Made by a program: the position numbers and the translations under genes
The notes under the pieces: model-generated
What the model was told of the DNA's origin: nothing
The model's database searches: none
Seen by the model: only the letters and a program-made list of their open reading frames with translations
Assembly (NCBI GenBank): GCA_012689325.1
Contig: JAAYEA010000174.1
Span: 1 to 34,129 of the forward strand
From: Chloroflexota bacterium
Lineage (GTDB): Bacteria; Chloroflexota; Anaerolineae; JAAYEA01
DNA: 34,129 nucleotides
Reading direction: 5' to 3'
Part shown: one piece after another, positions 5,796-14,630 of the stretch
Layout of the letters: every line of letters begins with the position of its first letter
Numbering within the stretch: the first letter of the stretch is position 1

Positions 5796-5809
5796 CGGCG
5801 ACCGCTAAT
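5791..5809. terminator. Short symmetrical hairpin carrying both stop codons of a convergent pair
   Basis: ATTAGCGG at 5791-5798 pairs perfectly with CCGCTAAT at 5802-5809 around a 3-base loop. The TAG of ppk2 (5793-5795) lies in the left arm and the TAG of the minus-strand URO-D gene (5805-5807 on plus) in the right arm. It has no long T tract, so termination strength is uncertain. Confidence 0.45.
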
Positions 5810-6953
5810 ACTGCCCGTACGTCCGCGCTACCTCCACCAGCTTGAATATATTCTCGTCCGGGGTGTCGCGCCCGCACTGGTCGCCGGTGGAGAGGATGAA
5901 CCCGCCGCCGGCGGCCGCGTCGTCGATGGCCTGCTTGGCGGCGCGCTCCACCTCCGCCGGGCTGCCCATGAGCATCACTTGCGTGGTGTGCAGGTTGCCC
6001 ATCAGGCCGATCTTGGCGCCAAAGGCCCGCTTCACCTCGTCGAGGTGGCAGTCGCCCATGGGCGGGATCTCCAGCGGGTTGATGCTGCTCAGGTCGCTCT
6101 CCTCCGCGGCCATGCGCACCAGGGCGTATTCCGGCCCGCAGCAATGGATCTGGCTGGGGATGCCCGCGGCCTTGCACAGCGCCGAGACCTCTTGCAGCGT
6201 CGGCAGCGAGAGCTCCCGAAAGATCGGCTCGGGGTTGGCGATCATGTGCCCGGACATGCCGATGAGGACGAAATCGGGCCCCAGCTTGAGCAACTCCTTG
6301 GTCCGGCGCACGATGCGCTCGTGCTCGGCCCGGCAGCGCGCCACGGTCCCGGCGTGATCGTCATAGTAGGCATAGATCGTCTCCGGCTCGCGGACGTTGA
6401 GCCCCGGCAGCCCCACGGCCAGGCTGACCACACCGGCGTCGCCCATCAGCCGCTTGGCCTCCAGAAACGCCTCCACCCCCTCGTAATGCGTCCGCGGCTC
6501 CACGTCCTCCCACTCGGTAGGCGCGCGCTCCGGCAAGTCCACCTTGGCCAGGGCCAGCCCCCGCGTGGGCGGGTTGTCGATGTAATAGATGTTGCAGGTC
6601 TCCGACCAGGTGTCCACGCCGTCGATGGTGGCGTGCTGGCGGGTATAGATGCGCTCCGGCGTGCGGCGGACGATGGCCTCGCGCCAGGCGGGCTCCTCGG
6701 CGGCCTCCTCGATCTCGTAGGGAAGCTGCACCGGCGCGTTGTCCAGCCAGCCGTCAAAGCCGAAATAGCGCACGGCGTTCAGATAGGCCTTCCAGCGCGG
6801 CGGGTCCTGGTAGAGATAGATATCCCAGAACGGCTTGCCGGTGAGCCGGCAGGGGATCATGTTCGAGATGTCGGGCGCCACCGGCACGGCGTCCGGCTGC
6901 CTGTTGCGCATGGCGGTGAGCATGCGCGCGCGGGAGGTCATGGTGAGAGGCAT
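5805..6953 (-). CDS. Uroporphyrinogen decarboxylase (URO-D/MtaA) superfamily protein
   Basis: The 382-residue protein has URO-D superfamily features: an N-terminal MTSRARMLTAMRNRQPDAVPVAP, a central FVLIGMSGHMIANPEPIF barrel strand, a zinc- or substrate-site IHCCG (H270, C271, C272) and a C-terminal GGFILSTGDQCGRDTP segment. In true HemE enzymes the N-terminal substrate motif is R-x-P-x-W-x-M-R-Q-A-G-R, which is absent here. This points to the MtaA/CmuA-like branch, which transfers methyl groups to or from corrinoids, or to an uncharacterised branch, rather than haem synthesis. ATG at 6953 is preferred because AAGGAG lies 8 bases before it; the longer frame from 7055 reads through a tRNA terminator. 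No corrinoid protein gene is adjacent, so the role stays open. Confidence 0.8.
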   Translation of the reverse strand: MPLTMTSRARMLTAMRNRQPDAVPVAPDISNMIPCRLTGKPFWDIYLYQDPPRWKAYLNAVRYFGFDGWLDNAPVQLPYEIEEAAEEPAWREAIVRRTPERIYTRQHATIDGVDTWSETCNIYYIDNPPTRGLALAKVDLPERAPTEWEDVEPRTHYEGVEAFLEAKRLMGDAGVVSLAVGLPGLNVREPETIYAYYDDHAGTVARCRAEHERIVRRTKELLKLGPDFVLIGMSGHMIANPEPIFRELSLPTLQEVSALCKAAGIPSQIHCCGPEYALVRMAAEESDLSSINPLEIPPMGDCHLDEVKRAFGAKIGLMGNLHTTQVMLMGSPAEVERAAKQAIDDAAAGGGFILSTGDQCGRDTPDENIFKLVEVARTYGQY

Positions 6954-6984
6954 GGGAGCAGCTCCTTGGGATCCTTGCTCGCAA

Positions 6985-7021
6985 TAAAAAAGGCCCGGCC
7001 AAATTGATAAAGCCGAGCCTT
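6985..7021 (-). terminator. Rho-independent terminator of the tRNA-Glu gene
   Basis: On the minus strand an AAGGCTCGGC stem pairs, with one mismatch, with GCCGGGCCTT and runs straight into TTTTTTATT. It starts 27 bases after the tRNA 3' end and lies before the URO-D gene, so it should insulate the two. Confidence 0.8.
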
Positions 7022-7047
7022 GGGTCATGGTAGGGTGTACCATGAAG

Positions 7048-7121
7048 TAGCGCATAGGGGATTCGAACCCCTGATCTCCTCCTTGAGAGGGAGGTGTCCT
7101 AGGCCGCTAGACGAATGCGCC
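7048..7121 (-). tRNA. tRNA-Glu (anticodon CUC)
   Basis: On the minus strand a 74-base cloverleaf can be drawn by eye. The acceptor stem GGCGCAT pairs with ATGCGCT (first pair G-U), the D arm contains TCTAGCGGCCTAGGA, the anticodon stem CCTCC/GGAGG closes the loop CTCTCAA with anticodon CTC, and the T arm is AGGGG-TTCGAAT-CCCCT. The D-loop and CTCTCAA loop match glutamate tRNAs and decode GAG. The CCA end is not encoded: CTT follows the discriminator A. A near-perfect promoter lies upstream and a terminator downstream, so it is probably a single-gene transcript. Confidence 0.95.
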
Positions 7122-7138
7122 CCGATTCAAGCGAGGGT

Positions 7139-7167
7139 ATTCTACCTGATTCCCCCAGATTTGTCAA
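7139..7167 (-). promoter_or_regulatory. Strong sigma-70-type promoter of tRNA-Glu
   Basis: On the minus strand: consensus TTGACA (plus 7162-7167), 17-base spacer, TAGAAT (plus 7139-7144). The predicted start is about 10 bases upstream of the mature tRNA 5' end at 7121. It diverges from the leaderless promoter at 7188-7216. Confidence 0.85.
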
Positions 7168-7187
7168 ATCTCGCTTCGCGCGCGGAT

Positions 7188-7216
7188 TTGCCCATTCCGG
7201 AACCAGACCCTATAAT
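7188..7216 (+). promoter_or_regulatory. Promoter for a leaderless ATL-selA transcript
   Basis: TTGCCC at 7188-7193, a 17-base spacer and a perfect TATAAT at 7211-7216. The ATG at 7223 begins six bases after the -10 box, so the first transcribed base should be at or beside the A of the start codon. No Shine-Dalgarno sequence is present. Confidence 0.75.
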
Positions 7217-7222
7217 CGGGGC

Positions 7223-7537
7223 ATGCAAGGATTCGCGCAACGGGTGTTCAAGCTCATCGCTCAGGTGCCGGAGGGGCAGGTGGTCACCTACGGGTCCATT
7301 GCGCGCGCCCTGGGAGAGCCGCAAGGGGCGCGCATGGTCGGCTGGGCCATGCATCAGTGCCCGGAGGGGCTGCCGTGGTACCGCGTGCTCAACAGCCAGG
7401 GGCGGGTCAGCCTGCCGGGCGAAGGCGGTGCGCTGCAACGGAGCCTGCTGGAGGATGAAGGAGTGGAATTCGACGAGCGCGACCGCGTGGACCTGGCGCG
7501 CTATCTCTGGGATGCCGAGGCGGAATATGCCGAGTGA
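7223..7537 (+). CDS. Alkyltransferase-like protein (ATL), MGMT-family DNA lesion sensor
   Basis: The 104-residue protein is the DNA-binding domain of the O6-methylguanine-DNA methyltransferase family. VPEGQVVTYGSIARALG is the helix-turn-helix region, with Y23 (base-flipping tyrosine) and R37 in ARMVGWAM (arginine finger). The methyl-acceptor motif PCHRV reads P51-W52-Y53-R54-V55, so the acceptor cysteine is replaced by tryptophan. This defines ATL proteins, which bind alkylated guanine without repairing it and hand the lesion to nucleotide excision repair. The short length (no N-terminal domain) is normal for ATLs. ATG at 7223 is chosen from the promoter position. The 3' end overlaps selA by 11 bases, so the two are co-transcribed and perhaps coupled. 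Confidence 0.92.
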   Translation: MQGFAQRVFKLIAQVPEGQVVTYGSIARALGEPQGARMVGWAMHQCPEGLPWYRVLNSQGRVSLPGEGGALQRSLLEDEGVEFDERDRVDLARYLWDAEAEYAE

Positions 7538-8894
7538 GCTGCGCAAGTTGCCCAGCGTGGATAGCGTGCTGCAACAGCCCGAGGCCCAGGCCGCCGTGCC
7601 GATCTACGGCCGCGAGCTGGTGTCCGGGGCGGTCCGGATGGCGCTGGACGAGGCGCGGCAGCGCGTGCTGGGCGGCGCGGCCTGCCCAGCGATGGCCGAG
7701 GTGCTCTCCGCCGTGGCCGACCGGCTGGCGGCGCTGGCCCAGCCCACCCTGCAACTCGTCATCAACGCCACGGGCGTGATCATTCACACCAATTTGGGGC
7801 GCGCGCCGCTGAGCGCGGCCACCATCGCGGCGATGCAACAGGCCGCCGTAGGGTACTCCAACCTGGAATATGACCTGGAGCAAGGGCAGCGCGGGTCGCG
7901 CTATGCCCACGCCGAGGGGCTGCTCTGCCGCCTGACGGGGGCTGAGGCGGCGCTTTTGGTGAATAACAACGCCGGGGCCGTCTTGTTGGCGCTCTCCGCG
8001 CTGGCCCAGGGGCGCGAGGTGGTGATCTCGCGCGGGCAGCTTGTGGAGATCGGCGGCGGGTTCCGCATCCCCGACGTGATGGCGCAGAGCGGGGCGCTGC
8101 TGCGTGAGGTGGGGACCACCAATCGTACCCGCCTGCGCGATTACGAGGCGGCCATCGGTGAGCAGACCGCCCTGCTCATGCGCGTTCATACCAGCAATTT
8201 CAAGATCATCGGGTTTGTGCAACAGGTCGAGCTGGACGAGCTGGTGCGCCTGGGCCGGGAGCGCCGCCTGCCCGTGGTGGACGATCTGGGCAGCGGCACG
8301 CTGCTGGACACCAGCCCCTATGGCCTGACCCACGAGCCGACGGTGCAAGAGAGCGTTGCCGCCGGGGCGGATATCGTCACCTTTAGCGGCGACAAGCTGC
8401 TGGGCGGCCCCCAAGCGGGGATCATCGTGGGCCGCGGCGAGCTGGTGGAGCGGCTGCGGCGGCACCCCCTCACCCGCGCGCTGCGGGTGGACAAGACCGC
8501 CATCGCCGGCATCCAGGCCAATCTGTTGCACTATCTCAAGGGCGAGGCGGCGCGCGAAATCCCCGTCTGGCGCATGATCGCCCTGCCGCTGGCCGAGCTG
8601 GAGGCCCGCGCGCAGGCGCTGGCGGCGCAGGCCGCGCGGCTGGGCGTGGCGGCGCAGGTGGTGGACGGCCAGTCGACCATCGGCGGGGGCTCCCTGCCCG
8701 GCGAGATGCTGCCCACCAGGTTGGTGGCGCTCCCGGTGCGCGGTGCCGATGCATTGGCTCGCGCGCTGCGCCGCGGGCAACCCGCCGTGGTGGGGCGCAT
8801 CGAGGATGATCGGCTGCTATTGGACCTGCGCACGGTGCTGCCGGGACAGGACGAGGCGCTGGCCGGCTGCCTGGCCCGGGCGCTGGCGAGTTAG
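7527..8894 (+). CDS. selA: L-seryl-tRNA(Sec) selenium transferase (SelA)
   Basis: SelA is a PLP enzyme that converts seryl-tRNA(Sec) to selenocysteyl-tRNA(Sec) using selenophosphate, normally as a decamer in the cytoplasm. The 455-residue protein shows family blocks in order: LRKLPSVDSVL at the N-terminus, VINATGVIIHTNLGRAPLS, YSNLEYDLEQGQRGSRY, LVNNNAGAVLL, ISRGQLVEIGGGFRIPDVM, VHTSNFKIIGF, VDDLGSG and FSGDKLLGGPQAG with PLP lysine K290. The ATG at 7527 has GAGGCGG upstream and overlaps the ATL stop codon. No selB, selD, tRNA-Sec or selenoprotein gene is visible in the window, so the rest of the pathway must lie elsewhere. Confidence 0.95.
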   Translation: MPSELRKLPSVDSVLQQPEAQAAVPIYGRELVSGAVRMALDEARQRVLGGAACPAMAEVLSAVADRLAALAQPTLQLVINATGVIIHTNLGRAPLSAATIAAMQQAAVGYSNLEYDLEQGQRGSRYAHAEGLLCRLTGAEAALLVNNNAGAVLLALSALAQGREVVISRGQLVEIGGGFRIPDVMAQSGALLREVGTTNRTRLRDYEAAIGEQTALLMRVHTSNFKIIGFVQQVELDELVRLGRERRLPVVDDLGSGTLLDTSPYGLTHEPTVQESVAAGADIVTFSGDKLLGGPQAGIIVGRGELVERLRRHPLTRALRVDKTAIAGIQANLLHYLKGEAAREIPVWRMIALPLAELEARAQALAAQAARLGVAAQVVDGQSTIGGGSLPGEMLPTRLVALPVRGADALARALRRGQPAVVGRIEDDRLLLDLRTVLPGQDEALAGCLARALAS

Positions 8895-8915
8895 CAAGAG
8901 AGAGGAATGCAACCC

Positions 8916-9905
8916 ATGTCTGAGGAGCAGATGCCCGTGGAGACGGGCGCGGAGGCCAGGGCGCAGCTCGAATCGGCCATCAGCGCCCGTCTGGCGACGC
9001 TGGATGAGGCGACCTTGCAAGAGCTGGGGCGCTGGGTGGAGGGGGCGAGCGCGCCGCCGAAACAGGCGCCGCTCAGCCGGCGGCAGTTCCTGGGCCAGGT
9101 CGCCGTGGGCGGGCTGGCTCTGGTGGCCTCCAACACCGCCACCTCCATAATCGCCCGGAAACAGGCGGCGGAAGAGGCCGCAGCAGAGGCCGCGGGTCAA
9201 GTGCGGGCCGAGCTGCAGCCCCGGGTCACCACCCTGCAGGACCTCCTGGCCCTATACGAAAAGCTCGAAAACATCGGGCTGGACGGCTCGCTCCTTGGCA
9301 GCCTGACCTCCATTCGGCCGATCTTGCAGGCGGTGCGCGAGGCCAGCAAGATCGTGGTGTTGGGGCTGACGGTGGTCGAGGCGGCGTTGGTCCAGCTCAA
9401 AAAGGCCGAGGCGGTGGTGCGCGATGGCATCGCCTTTGTGGAAGGGCTCGTGGATCGGCTGGAGGAAAAGGTGGCGGGGCTGTGGAAGCTGCTGGGCGAG
9501 GTGACCGGGGTGGCCGTGCCCATCTCGGACTCGCTCGGCGCCTTTTTCCGCAGCATCCTGGACAAGATCCCCTTTGGCATCGGGGCCAAGATCCAGCAGA
9601 TCATCGACTGGATCCAGGACCTGGTCTCGGCCCTGCCCGAGTCGCTGGCCGTGATGCGCGCCCAGTTGCTGGGGCCGCTGCGCCTGGATTGGTTCGATGA
9701 GGCGTCCGAGAACAACCTGGACGCCAGGCTCGTCAAGCCGCTGCGGGAGGAACTGCTGGCCCCCGCCAAGCGGCTGCTGGCCGAGACGGAGCGCCTGGAT
9801 AGCGACTGGGATATCCTGGTGCAGCAGCCGATGGATCAGGCGCTGCAGGCCCGCGCCGAGGTTCTCAGCGAGATCAAGGATTTCCGCGCCAACATGGCGG
9901 CCTGA
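8916..9905 (+). CDS. Unknown helical protein with an internal twin-arginine (Tat-like) motif
   Basis: This 329-residue protein is unrecognised. Residues 1-50 are polar and helical. S54-R55-R56-Q57-F58-L59 matches the Tat consensus S-R-R-x-F-L, followed by a hydrophobic run from about 61 to 80 (VAVGGLALVASN). Residues 85-329 are rich in alanine, leucine and charged residues, with long amphipathic helices and no cysteine. The plausible reading is a Tat substrate or membrane-anchored protein with an unusually long cytoplasmic N-region. ATG at 8916 is preferred over 8907 because AGAGGA then sits at normal spacing. It lies 21 bases after selA and is probably in the same transcript; a strong hairpin follows. 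Confidence 0.75.
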   Translation: MSEEQMPVETGAEARAQLESAISARLATLDEATLQELGRWVEGASAPPKQAPLSRRQFLGQVAVGGLALVASNTATSIIARKQAAEEAAAEAAGQVRAELQPRVTTLQDLLALYEKLENIGLDGSLLGSLTSIRPILQAVREASKIVVLGLTVVEAALVQLKKAEAVVRDGIAFVEGLVDRLEEKVAGLWKLLGEVTGVAVPISDSLGAFFRSILDKIPFGIGAKIQQIIDWIQDLVSALPESLAVMRAQLLGPLRLDWFDEASENNLDARLVKPLREELLAPAKRLLAETERLDSDWDILVQQPMDQALQARAEVLSEIKDFRANMAA

Positions 9906-9974: not shown

Positions 9975-10430
9975 TTACCCGTCCTTGCGCGCCCAGTCGT
10001 AGGGGATCTGGTCGGTGTGGGCGGGCAGGCGGTACTCGTCCGGCTGCTGATAGTTGTACATCTCGGTGGGCACGTTGACGATCAGCGCGACCTCTTCGCT
10101 GATGCCCTTGAAGCCGTGCATCACGCCCGGCGGGATCTTGACCAGCATGGGGTTCAGCGAGCCGATAAAGAACTCATTGATCTCGCCATGGGTGGGCGAC
10201 CCCTCCCGGCTATCGTAGAGCACCACCTTGGCCATGCCTTGCACGCAGATAAAGTGGTCGGTCTGAATCTTGTGGTAATGCCAGCCCTTCACCACGCCGG
10301 GATAGACGGCGGTGATGTACACCTGCCCGAACTTGTCATACTCTTCCCAGTCGGGGCGCAGCATCTCCATCAGGTATCCCCGCTCGTCCGGGATCACGCG
10401 CAGCTTTTTGGTCTTGACGCCCTCGATCAC
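9975..10430 (-). CDS. RmlC-like cupin (dTDP-4-dehydrorhamnose 3,5-epimerase family)
   Basis: The 151-residue protein is a single jelly-roll of the dTDP-sugar 3,5-epimerase family. It shows DERGYLMEMLR near the N-terminus, VVKGWHYHKIQTDHF with H51 and H53, MAKVVLYDSREGSPTHGE, and a VKIPPGVMHGF strand. True RmlC has G-L-H-Y-Q around its catalytic histidine. Here the W-H-Y-H pattern and the short length (151 versus about 180) suggest a related sugar or polyol cupin, not necessarily rhamnose synthesis. GTG at 10430 is chosen because AAGGAGG lies 7 bases before it. It is the third gene of the minus-strand operon after the M20 hydrolase and the EamA-PAP2 protein; no other rml genes are in the window. 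Confidence 0.8.
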   Translation of the reverse strand: MIEGVKTKKLRVIPDERGYLMEMLRPDWEEYDKFGQVYITAVYPGVVKGWHYHKIQTDHFICVQGMAKVVLYDSREGSPTHGEINEFFIGSLNPMLVKIPPGVMHGFKGISEEVALIVNVPTEMYNYQQPDEYRLPAHTDQIPYDWARKDG

Positions 10431-10464: not shown

Positions 10465-11904
10465 TCACACCAGCCCGAAGGCTCGAAATACCAGCAGCGG
10501 GCCGCACAGCCCGACCAGGCCGCCGACGATGGTTTGCCAGCGGGTATGCGCGCCCACCGTGATGCGCGCCCAGGCCACCACCGGCACCAGCAGAAACGAG
10601 GGGGCGGCAAAGGGCCCCACCAGGATGGTGAGCATGGTGGAGAGCGCCGTGATGCCGATCATGTGCTGGCTCACCTTCCAGATAAAGGTGATGGCGATGC
10701 TGACCACGATGAGCGCCAGCCCCGTGGCAAAGACGGCCTGCAGGGCGCGCGGCCCCTGGCCGAACTGGAGCGCCACCAGCGGCAGCACCGCCGCCAGCAG
10801 GGCCATCACGATGAGCGGGAGTTGCACGCGCTCCTCGCGCCGGGTGATGTGCCAGTCGCTGATGCGCCCGCGGCGCCGCTGGTCCAACAGGAACAGGATG
10901 GGAAACCCCACGCTGACCGCCAGCACAAAGGCGGCCCAAGCGAGCCCTTCCCACGTCGAGCTGACGCCCTGCATGGCGGCCACCACGAAGACGATCCCCA
11001 GCCAATAGATGGGGTTGAGGAAATAGGAGACGAACTTGGCGGAGGCCATCGGCTCGCGCAATTCGGCGATGAACATGGCCAGCAAGATCATGCAGCCGCC
11101 GAACAGAGCCCTGGGCTCCAGGCGCTCCCCCATCAGCAAATAGCCAAAGATCGCGGCAAAGACCGGCTCCATGGCGAAAACCACGCCCGTGTGGGTGGGG
11201 GTCGTGTACTTGCTGACGCTGTTTTGCACGCCAAAGGCCAGGGCCGTGGCCAGGATGCCGGTAAAGGCGGCGGCGTTGAAAACATCTTGCGGCATGGGGA
11301 GGGGGATGCCCCCTTCAAAGTAGGAGGCAACGGCGCTGGCGGCTGCCACAAAGGCGATCTGCACGATGGTCAGGCCCAGCGCGTCGGTGCGGGGGGCCAG
11401 GAACCCCACCGCCGTGATATGCGCGCCAAACGAGATGGCGCAGCCCAACACCAGCAGGTCGCCGCGCTGGATCGACAGGTCGCCCTGGAGGGAGACCAGC
11501 GCCAGGCCGATGACCGCGACCGCCGTGGCCAGGAGGATTTGGCGCTTGGGCATCCGGCGCGTCCAGATGGCGGCGATGATGGGCACCGAGACGGTCTGCA
11601 ACCCTGTGATCAGCCCGGCCTTGGTGGCGCTGGTGTACTTGAGGCCGGTGGTTTGCAGCGTATAGCCGGCGAACAGGAGCAGCCCGATGAGCGCGCCCGC
11701 GCCCCAGCCCCACCAGCCCAAGGACTTGAGCCGCCGGCCAAAGAGGAGGAGCATCGCCAGCGTGGCCATGCCGAAACGGATGGCCAGAAAGCCAAAGACG
11801 GGGTACTTGCCCACCGCCTCTTGCACGGCGACAAAGGTGCTGCCCCAGATCAAGGTCACGAATAGGAGGGCCAGGTCGGCCCTGATTTGTCGCTTGCTCG
11901 TCAT
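10465..11904 (-). CDS. EamA/DMT-family transporter fused to a C-terminal PAP2-like membrane domain
   Basis: Residues 1 to about 283 form a ten-helix drug/metabolite transporter with two EamA repeats (DLALLFVTLIWGSTFVAVQE; GVQNSVSKYTTPTHTGVVFAMEPVFAAIFG). Residues about 290-479 form a second membrane domain. It contains GRISDWHITRREER, WKVSQHMIG with H414, and VAWARITVGAHTRWQ with R447 and H453, matching the C-terminal blocks of PAP2-type phosphatases (S-x-H and R-x5-H). The K-x6-R-P block is missing and the last aspartate is Q457, so phosphatase activity is doubtful. The frame is uninterrupted. The start at 11904 has GAGAG upstream. The gene lies 33 bases after the M20 gene and 34 before the cupin gene. 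Exported or recycled substrate is unknown. Confidence 0.85.
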   Translation of the reverse strand: MTSKRQIRADLALLFVTLIWGSTFVAVQEAVGKYPVFGFLAIRFGMATLAMLLLFGRRLKSLGWWGWGAGALIGLLLFAGYTLQTTGLKYTSATKAGLITGLQTVSVPIIAAIWTRRMPKRQILLATAVAVIGLALVSLQGDLSIQRGDLLVLGCAISFGAHITAVGFLAPRTDALGLTIVQIAFVAAASAVASYFEGGIPLPMPQDVFNAAAFTGILATALAFGVQNSVSKYTTPTHTGVVFAMEPVFAAIFGYLLMGERLEPRALFGGCMILLAMFIAELREPMASAKFVSYFLNPIYWLGIVFVVAAMQGVSSTWEGLAWAAFVLAVSVGFPILFLLDQRRRGRISDWHITRREERVQLPLIVMALLAAVLPLVALQFGQGPRALQAVFATGLALIVVSIAITFIWKVSQHMIGITALSTMLTILVGPFAAPSFLLVPVVAWARITVGAHTRWQTIVGGLVGLCGPLLVFRAFGLV

Positions 11905-11937: not shown

Positions 11938-13119
11938 TCAATTGCCCGCCTCGGCCAACCCCGGGTAGTGGCAGATGGCCGCCAGAAGCATCCGCGTCAA
12001 CAGGACAAGCTCGTCCACCGAGACGTGCTCGTTGCTGGAATGCGCGCCGTGCCCCACGCCCAAGTACCCGGCCGGAATCCCGGCCTCGCGGGTGAGGATG
12101 GAGACGTCGCCCACGCTGCGCTGCCCTACCTCCACCAACGGCTGGCCCAGAATATCCCTGGCCGCGGCTTGCAGGACGCACCGGGCCAGGTTGTCCTCGG
12201 CCATCCGGTATCCCTCGCGGGTCTTGCGCAGATCCAACGAGATGGTCACGTGGTGCTTGCGCGCCATCTCGTCCACCAGCTCCTCGAACTCGCGCTGGAT
12301 GTCGCGGTGGCTTTTCTCCGGCGCGTAGCGGCGCGTGCCCATGATCCGGCAGGTGGTGGGCAACCGGTTGTAAAAGTCGCCGCCCTCGAAAATGCCGATG
12401 AAAATGCTTTCCGGCCCCGTCAGGGGGATGTCCACGCGCGCCAGCTCGGCGTTCCGTTCCAGCAGGCGCCCCACCAGCTCGTGCCCCACCAAGATGGGGT
12501 GCGGCGCGCCAGGAGGGGCTTGCAGCTCGTGGACCACCTCGCCCTCGCGCCGGATGACGATTTCGAAGGTGCTTTGGCCCAGCCCCACGACTTCCAGCTC
12601 GCGGATGCGCCCCTCGGTGACGATGGCCATGTCGCCGTGGATGCCGTGGGCCACCAGCGCCGAAAGCCCCTCGCCGCGCCCCGTGGGCGCCTCGTGCAGG
12701 CCATGCGCCGTCAGCAGCAGGTTACCCTTCAGGCGGGCGCCCGATTCCATCAGCACCCGGGCCGCCTCGGCCATGGCGGTCAGCCCGCTCTTCATGTCCG
12801 TGGCACCGCGCCCGTGGATAATGCCATCGCGGCAATAGGGCGCCGCGTGCTCGGCTGGGATCGTGTCCAGATGCCCATCCAGTTGGAGGGTGGGTCCGGG
12901 CCCGCCGCGGAGCCGCGCGGCAAGGCTGGGGCTCTTGGGAAAGCGGTCGGCGACGTCGTAGCGCAGTTCCACTTCCAGCCCAATCCGCCGCAAATAGTCG
13001 GCGTAATGCTCGGTGACCTGGACCGAATCGCCGGTGGGGCTGGGGATCTGGACCAGGCTTAGCGCCAAATCCTGCAAGCGCTGCGCGCTGATGCGCCCCA
13101 AGAGCTCGCCGAGTTGCAT
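11938..13119 (-). CDS. M20-family metallohydrolase (ArgE/DapE-like)
   Basis: The 393-residue protein has the M20 fold: QLDGHLDTIP with H83 and D85, GRGATDMKSG with D108, and a dimerisation-type middle region. It ends with GHGAHSSNEHVSVDEL, which supplies the last metal-binding histidine. Where most M20 enzymes have a Glu-Glu pair (catalytic base plus metal ligand) this one has H142-E143 in AHGLHEAPTG. Family members usually remove acyl groups from amino acids. ATG at 13119 is chosen because GAGGAGGGGG precedes it; the extension to 13248 would cross the promoter. It is first in the operon with the EamA-PAP2 protein and the cupin, and diverges from an aminotransferase gene. Substrate unknown. 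Confidence 0.85.
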   Translation of the reverse strand: MQLGELLGRISAQRLQDLALSLVQIPSPTGDSVQVTEHYADYLRRIGLEVELRYDVADRFPKSPSLAARLRGGPGPTLQLDGHLDTIPAEHAAPYCRDGIIHGRGATDMKSGLTAMAEAARVLMESGARLKGNLLLTAHGLHEAPTGRGEGLSALVAHGIHGDMAIVTEGRIRELEVVGLGQSTFEIVIRREGEVVHELQAPPGAPHPILVGHELVGRLLERNAELARVDIPLTGPESIFIGIFEGGDFYNRLPTTCRIMGTRRYAPEKSHRDIQREFEELVDEMARKHHVTISLDLRKTREGYRMAEDNLARCVLQAAARDILGQPLVEVGQRSVGDVSILTREAGIPAGYLGVGHGAHSSNEHVSVDELVLLTRMLLAAICHYPGLAEAGN

Positions 13120-13154
13120 GACCCCCTCCTCGCGCCTGATCGCCGGATCATCGC

Positions 13155-13183
13155 TTGACCGAAAGCGCATTCTAGCATAAAAT
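13155..13183 (+). promoter_or_regulatory. Promoter of the aminotransferase-GHMP kinase-lysS operon
   Basis: TTGACC at 13155-13160, a 17-base spacer and TAAAAT at 13178-13183. The transcript would start near 13190 and have a leader of about 46 bases with AGGAGG before the ATG at 13236. The -10 box includes the ATG at 13182, which rules that codon out as the start. Confidence 0.85.
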
Positions 13184-13197
13184 GCCCCGGAGGTCAA
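13169..13197 (-). promoter_or_regulatory. Interlocked opposite promoter of the M20-EamA-cupin operon
   Basis: On the minus strand TTGACC (plus 13192-13197), a 17-base spacer and TAGAAT (plus 13169-13174). It overlaps the plus-strand promoter: the two -10 boxes lie side by side and the -35 boxes are at the outer ends, giving a symmetrical element. Confidence 0.85.
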
Positions 13198-13235
13198 AGC
13201 TATCCGTCGGCCAAGCCAACAGGAGGACGCTGCCC

Positions 13236-14630
13236 ATGCCGGAACCAAGTGCTCGGCTATCCCCAGAGCCGCCCGCCGGGTTCGGCGCGCTCTTGCCCCA
13301 CATGCGCACCGAGGCGCCCGGCCCGCGCTCCCGCGAGCTGGCGACGCTGCTGGAGCGGCACGAAGCGCCCACCGCCTCGACCCTGGCGCGCGGCCAGGTC
13401 CCCGTCTTTTGGGAGCGCACGCGAGACGCCAACATCCTCGATGTGGATGGCAACCTGTACGTGGACCTCACCGCCGGTTTCTGCGTGGCGGTGGCGGGGC
13501 ACTCTAATCCCCGGATCGTGGCCGCGCTGAGCGAGCAGGCCGCCGTCATGATGCACAGCCAGGGCGCCTCCAACCCCAACCCGCTGCGGGCCCGGCTGGC
13601 CCAGCGCCTGGCCGAGTTGGCCCCCGGCAACCTCTCTGTCTCGCACCTCGCCAATACGGGGGCGGAGGCCATCGAGGTGGCGCTCAAGACGGCGCGGCTG
13701 CACACGGGCCGCAGCATGGTGATCGCCTTCCAGGGCGGCTTTCATGGCAAGACCATCGGGGCGCTGGCCGCCACCTCGCAGAACTATTACCGCGCGCCGT
13801 TCCAGGGCGAATTGGGTGGGGTCGTCCACCTGCCCTATGCCTATTGCTATCGCTGCGCCTTTGGGCGTGAATACCCTGCCTGCGACACCTTTTGCGCCGA
13901 TTACGTGCGGCACGTCATCGAGATGCCCGATTCCGGCGTCGCGGATATCGCTGCCCTGGTGGTGGAGCCGGTGCAGGGGCATGGCGGCTGGATCGTGCCG
14001 CCGCCGAGCTTTCTGGCCAAGCTGCGTCGCATCTGCGACGACCACGGCATCCTGCTTATCGCCGACGAGATCATCACGGGCTGCGGGCGCACGGGCCGCC
14101 TGTTCGCCGTGGAGCATGCGGGGGTCGTGCCGGACATCTTGACGGTGGCCAAGGGGCTGGCTAGCGGCTTTCCCATCTCGGCCATGATCACCACCCCCGA
14201 GATCGCGGCGGCCTGGAAGCCGTTGCAGCATACCAGCACCTTCCTGGGCAACCCCGTGGGCTGCGCGGCGGCCCTCGCCTCCCTGGCCGAGATCACGGAG
14301 CGGGGGCTGGTGGCTCGCGCCGCCGAGATGGAGGGGCGTTTCCGGGAGCGCCTGGACCAGATGCAGCGACGCTGCGCCCTGATCGGCGACGTCCGCATCC
14401 TGGGCAGCATGGCCGGGATCGAGTTGGTGGAGGATCGCCGCACCAAAAAGCCCGCCGCTGCGCAGGCGGCCCGAGCGGTGGCGAACGCTCTGCAGCGCGG
14501 CGTGATGGCGACCAACCTGGGCGGGACCTACCATAACGTGATCAAGATGTCGCCGCCGCTGGTCATCACGTGGGAACAGCTATCGGTGGCGCTGGACCTG
14601 TTGGAAGAGAGCGTCCAGCAAGCCGCCTGA
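13236..14630 (+). CDS. Class III aminotransferase (4-aminobutyrate/omega-amino acid type)
   Basis: The 464-residue protein is a fold-type I PLP aminotransferase of class III. Visible motifs are NIDLTAGF-like VDLTAGFCVAVAGHS, NTGAEAIEVALK, FQGGFHGKT, the cysteine-rich CYRCAFGREYPACDTFC typical of the omega-aminotransferase branch, VEPVQGHGGW, IADEIITGCGRTG with D277, and TVAKGLASGFP with PLP lysine K306. It transfers amino groups from an omega-amino acid or similar donor to an alpha-keto acid; the true substrate is not evident. ATG at 13236 is preferred over 13182, which lies inside the -10 box, and AGGAGG is well spaced. It heads the operon with a GHMP kinase (36-base gap) and LysRS. Confidence 0.93.
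   Translation: MPEPSARLSPEPPAGFGALLPHMRTEAPGPRSRELATLLERHEAPTASTLARGQVPVFWERTRDANILDVDGNLYVDLTAGFCVAVAGHSNPRIVAALSEQAAVMMHSQGASNPNPLRARLAQRLAELAPGNLSVSHLANTGAEAIEVALKTARLHTGRSMVIAFQGGFHGKTIGALAATSQNYYRAPFQGELGGVVHLPYAYCYRCAFGREYPACDTFCADYVRHVIEMPDSGVADIAALVVEPVQGHGGWIVPPPSFLAKLRRICDDHGILLIADEIITGCGRTGRLFAVEHAGVVPDILTVAKGLASGFPISAMITTPEIAAAWKPLQHTSTFLGNPVGCAAALASLAEITERGLVARAAEMEGRFRERLDQMQRRCALIGDVRILGSMAGIELVEDRRTKKPAAAQAARAVANALQRGVMATNLGGTYHNVIKMSPPLVITWEQLSVALDLLEESVQQAA

Follow-up and report, generated by a model that had tools for sequence, protein, structure and literature searches.

A single open reading frame in the 34,129-nucleotide stretch of DNA analysed here (the window) appears to encode two integral membrane proteins in a row: a transporter of the EamA/DMT family, whose substrates are largely unknown, and a C-terminal part that resembles PAP2 proteins. 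The locus raises the questions of whether the join is real, whether the second half belongs to the PAP2 superfamily, and what a protein built in this way might do. We find that the EamA-PAP2 fusion is real, that it is one polypeptide shared with related Anaerolineae, and that it is probably a working protein. The open-licence papers that we searched yielded no description of such a fusion.

One polypeptide in many genomes

The frame is intact and uninterrupted over its 479 residues and starts with ATG (Table 1). The initial annotation had read it as a ten-helix EamA transporter continued by a PAP2-like C-terminus, and Pfam, structure models and structural comparison bear this out. It had named a PAP2 fold at the C-terminus and the same fusion in other genomes as support, and both were found; halves separated by a frameshift, which it had named as refutation, did not occur among the fusions found, each of which is one frame without a stop. 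The fusion is not a chance or frameshift artefact, because residues 285-479 alone match other genomes (24 of the 60 searched, the window's own included), fold confidently and superpose on PAP2-superfamily structures, and because the same stop-free frame recurs in 17 of the 396 class genomes and at one further locus (L063). With 18 distinct proteins in a single frame free of stops, an assembly or frameshift artefact was ruled out.

The transporter half is unambiguous in Pfam, where the window protein scores 119 bits against EamA (PF00892; cut-off 28.2) over two repeats; all ten fusions scanned match the same family at E <= 0.01. In the full-length model (mean pLDDT 88) ten helices span residues 3-281, and the best matches among solved structures are SLC35B1 (Z 27.2, rmsd 2.7, 275 residues aligned) and the triose-phosphate translocator (Z 26.1). 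The ten-helix DMT fold over residues 1-284 is shared with these two and with LicB and YddG, which we take to be entry 5i20. Unlike the window protein, the matched DMT chains have 255-350 residues, and nearly all of them align to the transporter part alone. By Pfam and by fold this half is a member of the EamA/DMT family; transport itself is putative.

Table 1. Features of the fusion gene and its immediate neighbours in the window.
Feature	Position	Strand	Remarks
RmlC-like cupin, 151 aa, next gene downstream	9975..10430	-	34 bases from fusion
EamA-PAP2-like fusion gene	10465..11904	-	479 aa, stop included; orthologous fusions in other genomes
PAP2-superfamily domain, residues 285-479	10468..11052	-	model pLDDT 93.8; structural matches
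Motif 3, residues 447-457, R-x5-H-x3-Q	10534..10566	-	R447, H453 63/63; Q457 62/63
Motif 2, residues 409-414, WKVSQH	10663..10680	-	K410 58/63; S412, H414 63/63
Motif 1, residues 346-359, GRISDWHITRREER, replaces K-x6-R-P	10828..10869	-	D350 58/63, R356 60/63, R359 63/63
EamA/DMT ten-helix transporter half, residues 1-284	11053..11904	-	Pfam PF00892 119 bits; DMT fold
M20 (ArgE/DapE-like) hydrolase, next gene upstream	11938..13248	-	33 bases from fusion

The C-terminal half has a PAP2 fold

Against PF01569 (PAP2) the window protein scores 19.3 bits at residues 411-475, under the cut-off of 27.2. The orthologous fusion in genome G022 lies above it (35.2 bits), as do two of nine unfused relatives in one set (31.2 and 34.9) and two of four in another (36.8 and 27.3). 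Modelled together with 12 relatives, residues 285-479 reached a pLDDT of 93.8, and ranks 1 to 11 of the structural comparison all went to PAP2-superfamily entries, at Z scores from 12.3 to 7.9 that are to be read against the value of about 13 that helical bundles can reach by chance. The fold is nevertheless convincing because a single superfamily occupies the top ranks. The first match was G6PC1 with G6P (Z 12.3, rmsd 2.3, 120 residues aligned); others were LpxE (10.6), B. subtilis YodM (10.3), apo G6PC1 and Aur1 (9.9 each), human LPP1 (9.6), PgpB (9.1) and SMSr (7.9), with Aur1 and SMSr taken by us to be superfamily members. G6PC1 was also the best PDB profile match of the C-terminal half (E 5e-4). 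The full-length model matched LpxE (Z 13.4) and YodM (12.8), and G6PC1 was not among the entries listed for it. Foldseek gave no match under E 0.001 for the C-terminal half, and a search of solved structures with the window domain alone returned just an unrelated row. By the fold of the model, residues 285-479 are a PAP2-superfamily domain, as first proposed, although the window protein's own Pfam score is below the cut-off.

A variant active site common to the subfamily

The sequence blocks picked out by the initial annotation are all in place (G346-RISD350, R355-REER359, S412-Q-H414, R447-x5-H453 and Q457), and the window protein does lack K-x6-R-P, the C1 motif of PAP2 proteins. We counted conservation over 63 C-terminal sequences, 17 fused and 46 not, with the divergent fusion of genome G214 (see below) outside the set; the 46 comprise 45 unfused proteins and one (L109) that is itself fused to DUF6545. 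R359, S412, H414, R447, H453 and G461 are invariant in all 63, an invariance that is partly by choice, since the rows were picked by similarity, and that holds for those rows only. Instead of C1 the family has D-x5-R-x2-R, in a loop two helices earlier, and a conserved lysine, K410, stands two residues before the serine of S-x-H. With R356, R359 and K410 conserved in these sequences, the C1 block seems to have been replaced rather than merely lost. The C2 motif S-G-H is not matched, as the window protein has S-Q-H and the glycine place varies across the 63 relatives, and neither is C3, R-x5-H-x3-D, which reads R-x5-H-x3-Q in 62 of the 63, the remaining one having Glu at position 457. Two positions set the fusions apart: Q413 (17/17 against 0/46) and A452 (17/17 against 6/46, the others having Arg or Lys in 34).

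The claim of an altered active site stands as far as C1 is missing and Gln occupies the place of Asp; Q457, however, is no peculiarity of this protein. The alignment makes the exchange a trait of the whole group, not a sign of decay. Active human G6PC1 likewise ends its third motif in Gln, R-x5-H-x3-Q, in the part of PMC12264158 available, and in the profile alignment this Gln pairs with Q457. Since Gln is the family norm and is present in an active enzyme, Q457 is by itself no argument for a binding-only domain, and we rejected the idea that it marks the window protein as a degenerate or pseudo-enzyme. The third motif of DOLPP1 presumably ends in Gln as well. The loss of C1 is a separate matter. 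The activity of G6PC1 is abolished by K76N and falls to about 10% with R83Q (PMC12264158, in part), and in PgpB the C3 Asp matters, another study reportedly disagreeing for PGP (PMC7413402, in part); by analogy with these effects, a domain that has lost C1 could act in binding or as a transferase.

Predicted orientation of the active site

Which side of the membrane the motifs face was absent from the initial annotation, and we add here a prediction of inverted topology. The model of the PAP2-like domain has seven membrane helices, preceded by one that looks amphipathic by eye. The ends of DMT proteins are thought to be cytoplasmic in mCST (PMC6508934), and the C-terminus of SepJ is cytoplasmic (PMC12096826), as far as the accessible parts of these papers go. 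If both termini of the DMT half are cytoplasmic, helix parity would bring motifs 1 to 3 to the cytoplasmic face.

Charge distributions point the same way. With the motif residues excluded, all 17 fusions and all 46 other proteins carry more lysine plus arginine on the side of the motifs, the helix borders of the unfused rows having been transferred from the window model, and the EamA loops carry 10.1 such residues inside against 4.4 outside. In related genomes, all 25 canonical PAP2 proteins compared (of 31 loci, the 6 that lacked the full pattern were excluded) hold Lys or Arg in the loop between C2 and C3, at a mean of 2.28, but none of the 17 fusions and 5 of the 46 others do. Counted crudely by hydropathy, four segments precede motif 2 in 15 of the 17 fusions and in 39 of 45 other proteins, against 0-3 in the canonical set; the count is too coarse to serve as a control. 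On the model and these sequence features, the active-site motifs are predicted to face the cytoplasm, opposite to PgpB, and the subfamily would be inverted. In the open-licence literature, a search for PAP2 together with inverted topology returned just work on the phosphatase UppP.

Origin and maintenance of the fusion

At E <= 1e-10, a profile built from four fusion C-termini found matches in 163 of the 396 class genomes. The top 16 of these matches (E <= 5.3e-48) lie in frames of 361-594 residues; the next, at 1e-34, lies in a frame of 204. A profile of the whole fusion (E <= 1e-90) matched in 70 of the 396, running through the PAP2 part in 17 and ending at the transporter end in 53. A pattern-based scan of 84,980 species yielded 12 loci: three unfused Bacteroidota proteins and nine fusions, eight of them in metagenome-assembled genomes (MAGs) named Chloroflexi or Anaerolineae and one (L063) in a MAG named Actinobacteria. 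There are 18 distinct fusions in total, 17 from the class genomes, with G214 as the seventeenth, plus L063, and they span three family codes plus L063; two (L037 and L043) run into a contig edge on the transporter side. The PAP2-like subfamily itself was met in Chloroflexota, Bacteroidota and Actinomycetota.

Trees were built before the G214 fusion was found and include the 17 others. Repeated loci from one genome were dropped before alignment, and the unfused relatives, here as in the conservation and charge counts, are best-match loci, a subset of the 163 genomes. In these quick trees, which carry SH-aLRT values only and in which some long branches were flagged, the 17 fusions form one clade by their C-terminal part (63 rows; SH-aLRT 98), and in the transporter tree (44 rows) a weakly supported branch (69) sets them apart from the rest. 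A single fusion event would be the simplest reading.

Unfused counterparts of both halves are common: transporter orthologues, the 17 best of which are 46-54% identical, and PAP2-like proteins, mostly of about 200-290 residues. In the 11 genomes that hold both unfused halves at the thresholds used, each half is on a contig of its own. When 13 unfused members were made into a profile and run against 16 fusion genomes, every genome gave one match, always the fusion; by this search the fused copy is the sole member of the PAP2-like family in 16 of the 16 genomes tested. For six pairs, dN/dS was 0.10-0.43 in both halves, with dS above 1 in 9 of the 12 comparisons, and the C-terminal half was the less conserved in all six. 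By this sequence comparison, purifying selection acts on each half in the pairs tested.

Other arrangements of the PAP2-like domain were also seen. L109 (3172-5100, minus strand) encodes 643 residues, in which DUF6545 (PF20182, 124.9 bits) precedes the same PAP2-like domain. On plasmids of Rhodococcus (L196) and Corynebacterium bovis (L197) an unfused PAP2-like gene overlaps the gene immediately upstream, which encodes an unknown protein; HTH regulators lie near both, and in C. bovis an ImmA/IrrE peptidase does too.

The fusion of genome G214 (L199, G214:C344:2111-3577, plus strand) was missed at first because of its divergent C-terminus. It is a single frame of 500 residues in a genome of family code f36, like 13 other fusions, and its transporter half is well kept (407 bits) while its C-terminus is weak. 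In the alignment with the other fusions its motif 1 is lost, R356 is replaced by Pro, R359 by Gly, K410 by Ala, H453 by Asp and Q457 by Tyr; H414 is aligned to Ala, yet a shifted S-H remains, and S412, R447 and G461 are retained. As the alignment reads, most catalytic residues are lost and the fusion is retained in at least this one lineage, and catalysis is dispensable there. A fused PAP2-like domain can, by this example, outlive catalysis, and the loss in G214 makes the conservation in the other 17 fusions more telling.

Gene neighbourhood

The cupin and the M20 hydrolase had been put forward as operon partners of the fusion. Both are adjacent and on the same strand, but among 10 other fusion loci from 9 genomes no counterpart of the M20 gene lies beside the fusion, and the cupin recurs at one, in the sister genus G001, where a 91% identical copy sits directly downstream. 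By this comparison the operon partners are weak evidence for function.

Further away in the window, a SelA protein (7020-8894, plus strand; TIGR00474, 589 bits) has homologues near the fusions of G001 and G022 (582-589 bits across the three, cut-off 268); in G022, SelA and the fusion stand tail to tail with a slight overlap. A GHMP kinase lies near the fusion in the same three genomes. The neighbouring frame at 8907-9905 (plus strand; 332 residues, no Pfam match, a Tat-like SRRQFLG stretch by eye) is 45% identical to a neighbour of the G001 fusion, and the frame at 5805-7055 (minus strand) matches the URO-D family at 64.8 bits and, weakly, the MtaA/CmuA methyltransferase model (46 bits, under its cut-off).

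A pair of AAA (ChlI-like) and VWA genes lies upstream of the unfused transporter at 13 of 17 loci (L168-L184), with a 1.1 kb gap before the transporter at L178. Of the 17 fusions other than that of G214, 11 have the pair beside them, four do not (window, G001, G022 and G036) and two reach a contig edge first, which makes 11 of 15 readable loci; within family code f36 most fusions follow the pair; at L034-L045 the VWA part alone lies inside the locus. In G022 and G036 the pair was not found anywhere in the genome at E <= 1e-20. The cobaltochelatase model TIGR02442 (cut-off 779) is passed by one AAA-VWA protein, at 786 bits, and by none of the separate AAA and VWA genes scanned, and the large subunit CobN/ChlH was found in none of nine genomes tested (control hits in 5 of 14). 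Because CobN/ChlH is missing from these nine genomes and the pair from two fusion genomes, we did not build a function on the pair and did not adopt a role in cobalamin metabolism. The pair, seen also at L062-L066, looks in the nine genomes like an orphan chelatase-like motor linked to the transporter. Around 20 unfused PAP2-like loci no partner recurs at more than four (ABC ATPases, of which the two annotated are of different kinds).

A putative phosphohydrolase tethered to a transporter

We observe the fusion, its single clade, purifying selection on both halves, the PAP2 fold of the model, the conserved residues and the charge bias; from these we infer residue roles, catalytic activity, topology, coupling, its direction and a substrate class. 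In the reading we prefer, and to which we give not quite an even chance, the protein would be a cytoplasm-facing phosphohydrolase, its activity putative, tethered to a DMT transporter. An N-terminal ten-helix DMT (EamA) transporter with both ends cytoplasmic would be followed by a seven-helix PAP2-superfamily phosphohydrolase of a variant subfamily. Phosphate would be held by D350/R356/R359, K410/S412 and R447. H453 would act as the nucleophile, passing through a phosphohistidine, H414 as acid/base, and Q457 would stand in for the Asp of the relay, as Gln does in G6PC1. With motif 2 preceded by one more helix than in PgpB, the active site would open to the cytoplasm. A phosphorylated substrate, either available at the cytoplasmic face or imported by the transporter, would be dephosphorylated beside the transporter's inner mouth, and hydrolysis and transport would thereby be spatially coupled. 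As the class of substrate, we give prenyl or lipid phosphates about the same probability as soluble phospho-metabolites. It is tempting to generalise to an inverted PAP2 subfamily with the signature D-x5-R-x2-R...K-x-S-x-H...R-x5-H-x3-Q, one branch of which, fused to a DMT protein, would dephosphorylate and transport in parallel to the glucose-6-phosphatase/transporter pair; this broader picture we regard as rather unlikely.

The C-terminal domain might not be catalytic at all, and serve to gate or stabilise the transporter, either as a sensor of phospho-lipids or phospho-metabolites or as a structural element. The absence of K-x6-R-P, the exchange of Asp for Gln, the domain kept in the G214 fusion with most catalytic residues gone, and the fusion-specific Q413 and A452, which would mark a shift after fusion, can all be read in this way. 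We nevertheless consider it unlikely: binding alone would not demand that S412, H414, R447, H453 and R359 be invariant in fused and unfused members alike, and 45 of the 63 members had no fusion partner seen here. Alternatively, the two halves may merely share a polypeptide, for co-expression or as a membrane anchor, and have no functional coupling. That the unfused halves lie on different contigs in 11 genomes, that a second, unrelated partner exists in DUF6545, and that the G214 domain decayed while its transporter did not would suit such an arrangement, which is improbable in our view given that the fusion persists across three family codes, that purifying selection acts on both halves in the tested pairs and that no split version occurs among the fusions found.

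Two further possibilities keep the coupling and specify a substrate. The PAP2 part might dephosphorylate prenyl diphosphates at the inner leaflet and the DMT part flip the lipid product. The initial annotation had suggested that binding of a lipid phosphate or polyprenyl phosphate might be coupled to transport, and there is one lead in that direction: an unfused member with the same motifs on a Streptomyces zaomyceticus plasmid (L198, 4962-6694, plus strand) lies 62 bases before a polyprenyl synthetase gene. In addition, canonical PAP2 proteins act on C55-PP (PMC7413402, in part), and among SMR relatives of the DMT fold there are transporters of undecaprenyl phosphate aminoarabinose (PMC9574504, in part). 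Yet the synthetase is a neighbour at one of the four plasmid loci examined and not at the other three, a single-sequence search with it gave no match near 20 PAP2-like and 17 transporter loci, all unfused, or near 11 fusion loci, and such work could fall to two other PAP2 genes in the window genome, both above the Pfam threshold and one of them bearing the full canonical signature; we judge this reading quite unlikely. A system in which the PAP2 part dephosphorylates a cytoplasmic sugar or nucleotide phosphate and the DMT part exports the product is suggested by G6PC1 with G6P, the first structural and best PDB profile match and one that shares the Gln, and by SLC35B1 and the triose-phosphate translocator as best matches of the transporter half. 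Apo G6PC1, however, reaches just the 9.9 that places it level with LpxE, YodM, Aur1 and LPP1, the full-length model lists LpxE and YodM and not G6PC1, and DMT fold matches carry little substrate information, which leaves this version distinctly unlikely.

Relation to known proteins and implications

The window protein resembles PgpB, LpxE and B. subtilis YodM in its helical core, in its S-x-H and R-x5-H motifs and by superposition. It differs from them in lacking K-x6-R-P, in having Gln for the final Asp and in its fusion to a transporter; it has seven helices in the domain where they have six, and its motifs are predicted to be cytoplasmic where theirs are periplasmic, those of PgpB lying at the membrane-periplasm interface of a six-helix protein (PMC7413402, in part). 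G6PC1 is closer in structural and profile ranking and in its R-x5-H-x3-Q motif; its transporter is presumably a separate protein, SLC37A4. G6PC1 is described as working together with transport proteins. It retains K-x6-R-P and P-S-G-H, neither of which the window protein has, and, unlike the window domain, has nine helices and faces the ER lumen (PMC12264158, in the part available). Cyanobacterial SepJ offers a precedent for a DMT-type permease fused to an extra domain, with a cytoplasmic C-terminus; beyond the permease it has, as far as the available text of PMC12096826 describes it, a coiled coil and a linker where the window protein has its PAP2 domain.

Each half of the fusion is thus of a known kind, and what is new is the joint architecture together with a variant, probably inverted PAP2 part. 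In bacteria, PgpB and similar PAP2 lipid phosphatases do their work on the periplasmic side of the membrane. If the topology predicted here is right, a subfamily of phosphatases working at the inner leaflet or in the cytoplasm may be hidden under the same PAP2 annotation. Moreover, the fusion ties a putative phosphatase activity to a transporter, and identifying the substrate of either half would test the other.
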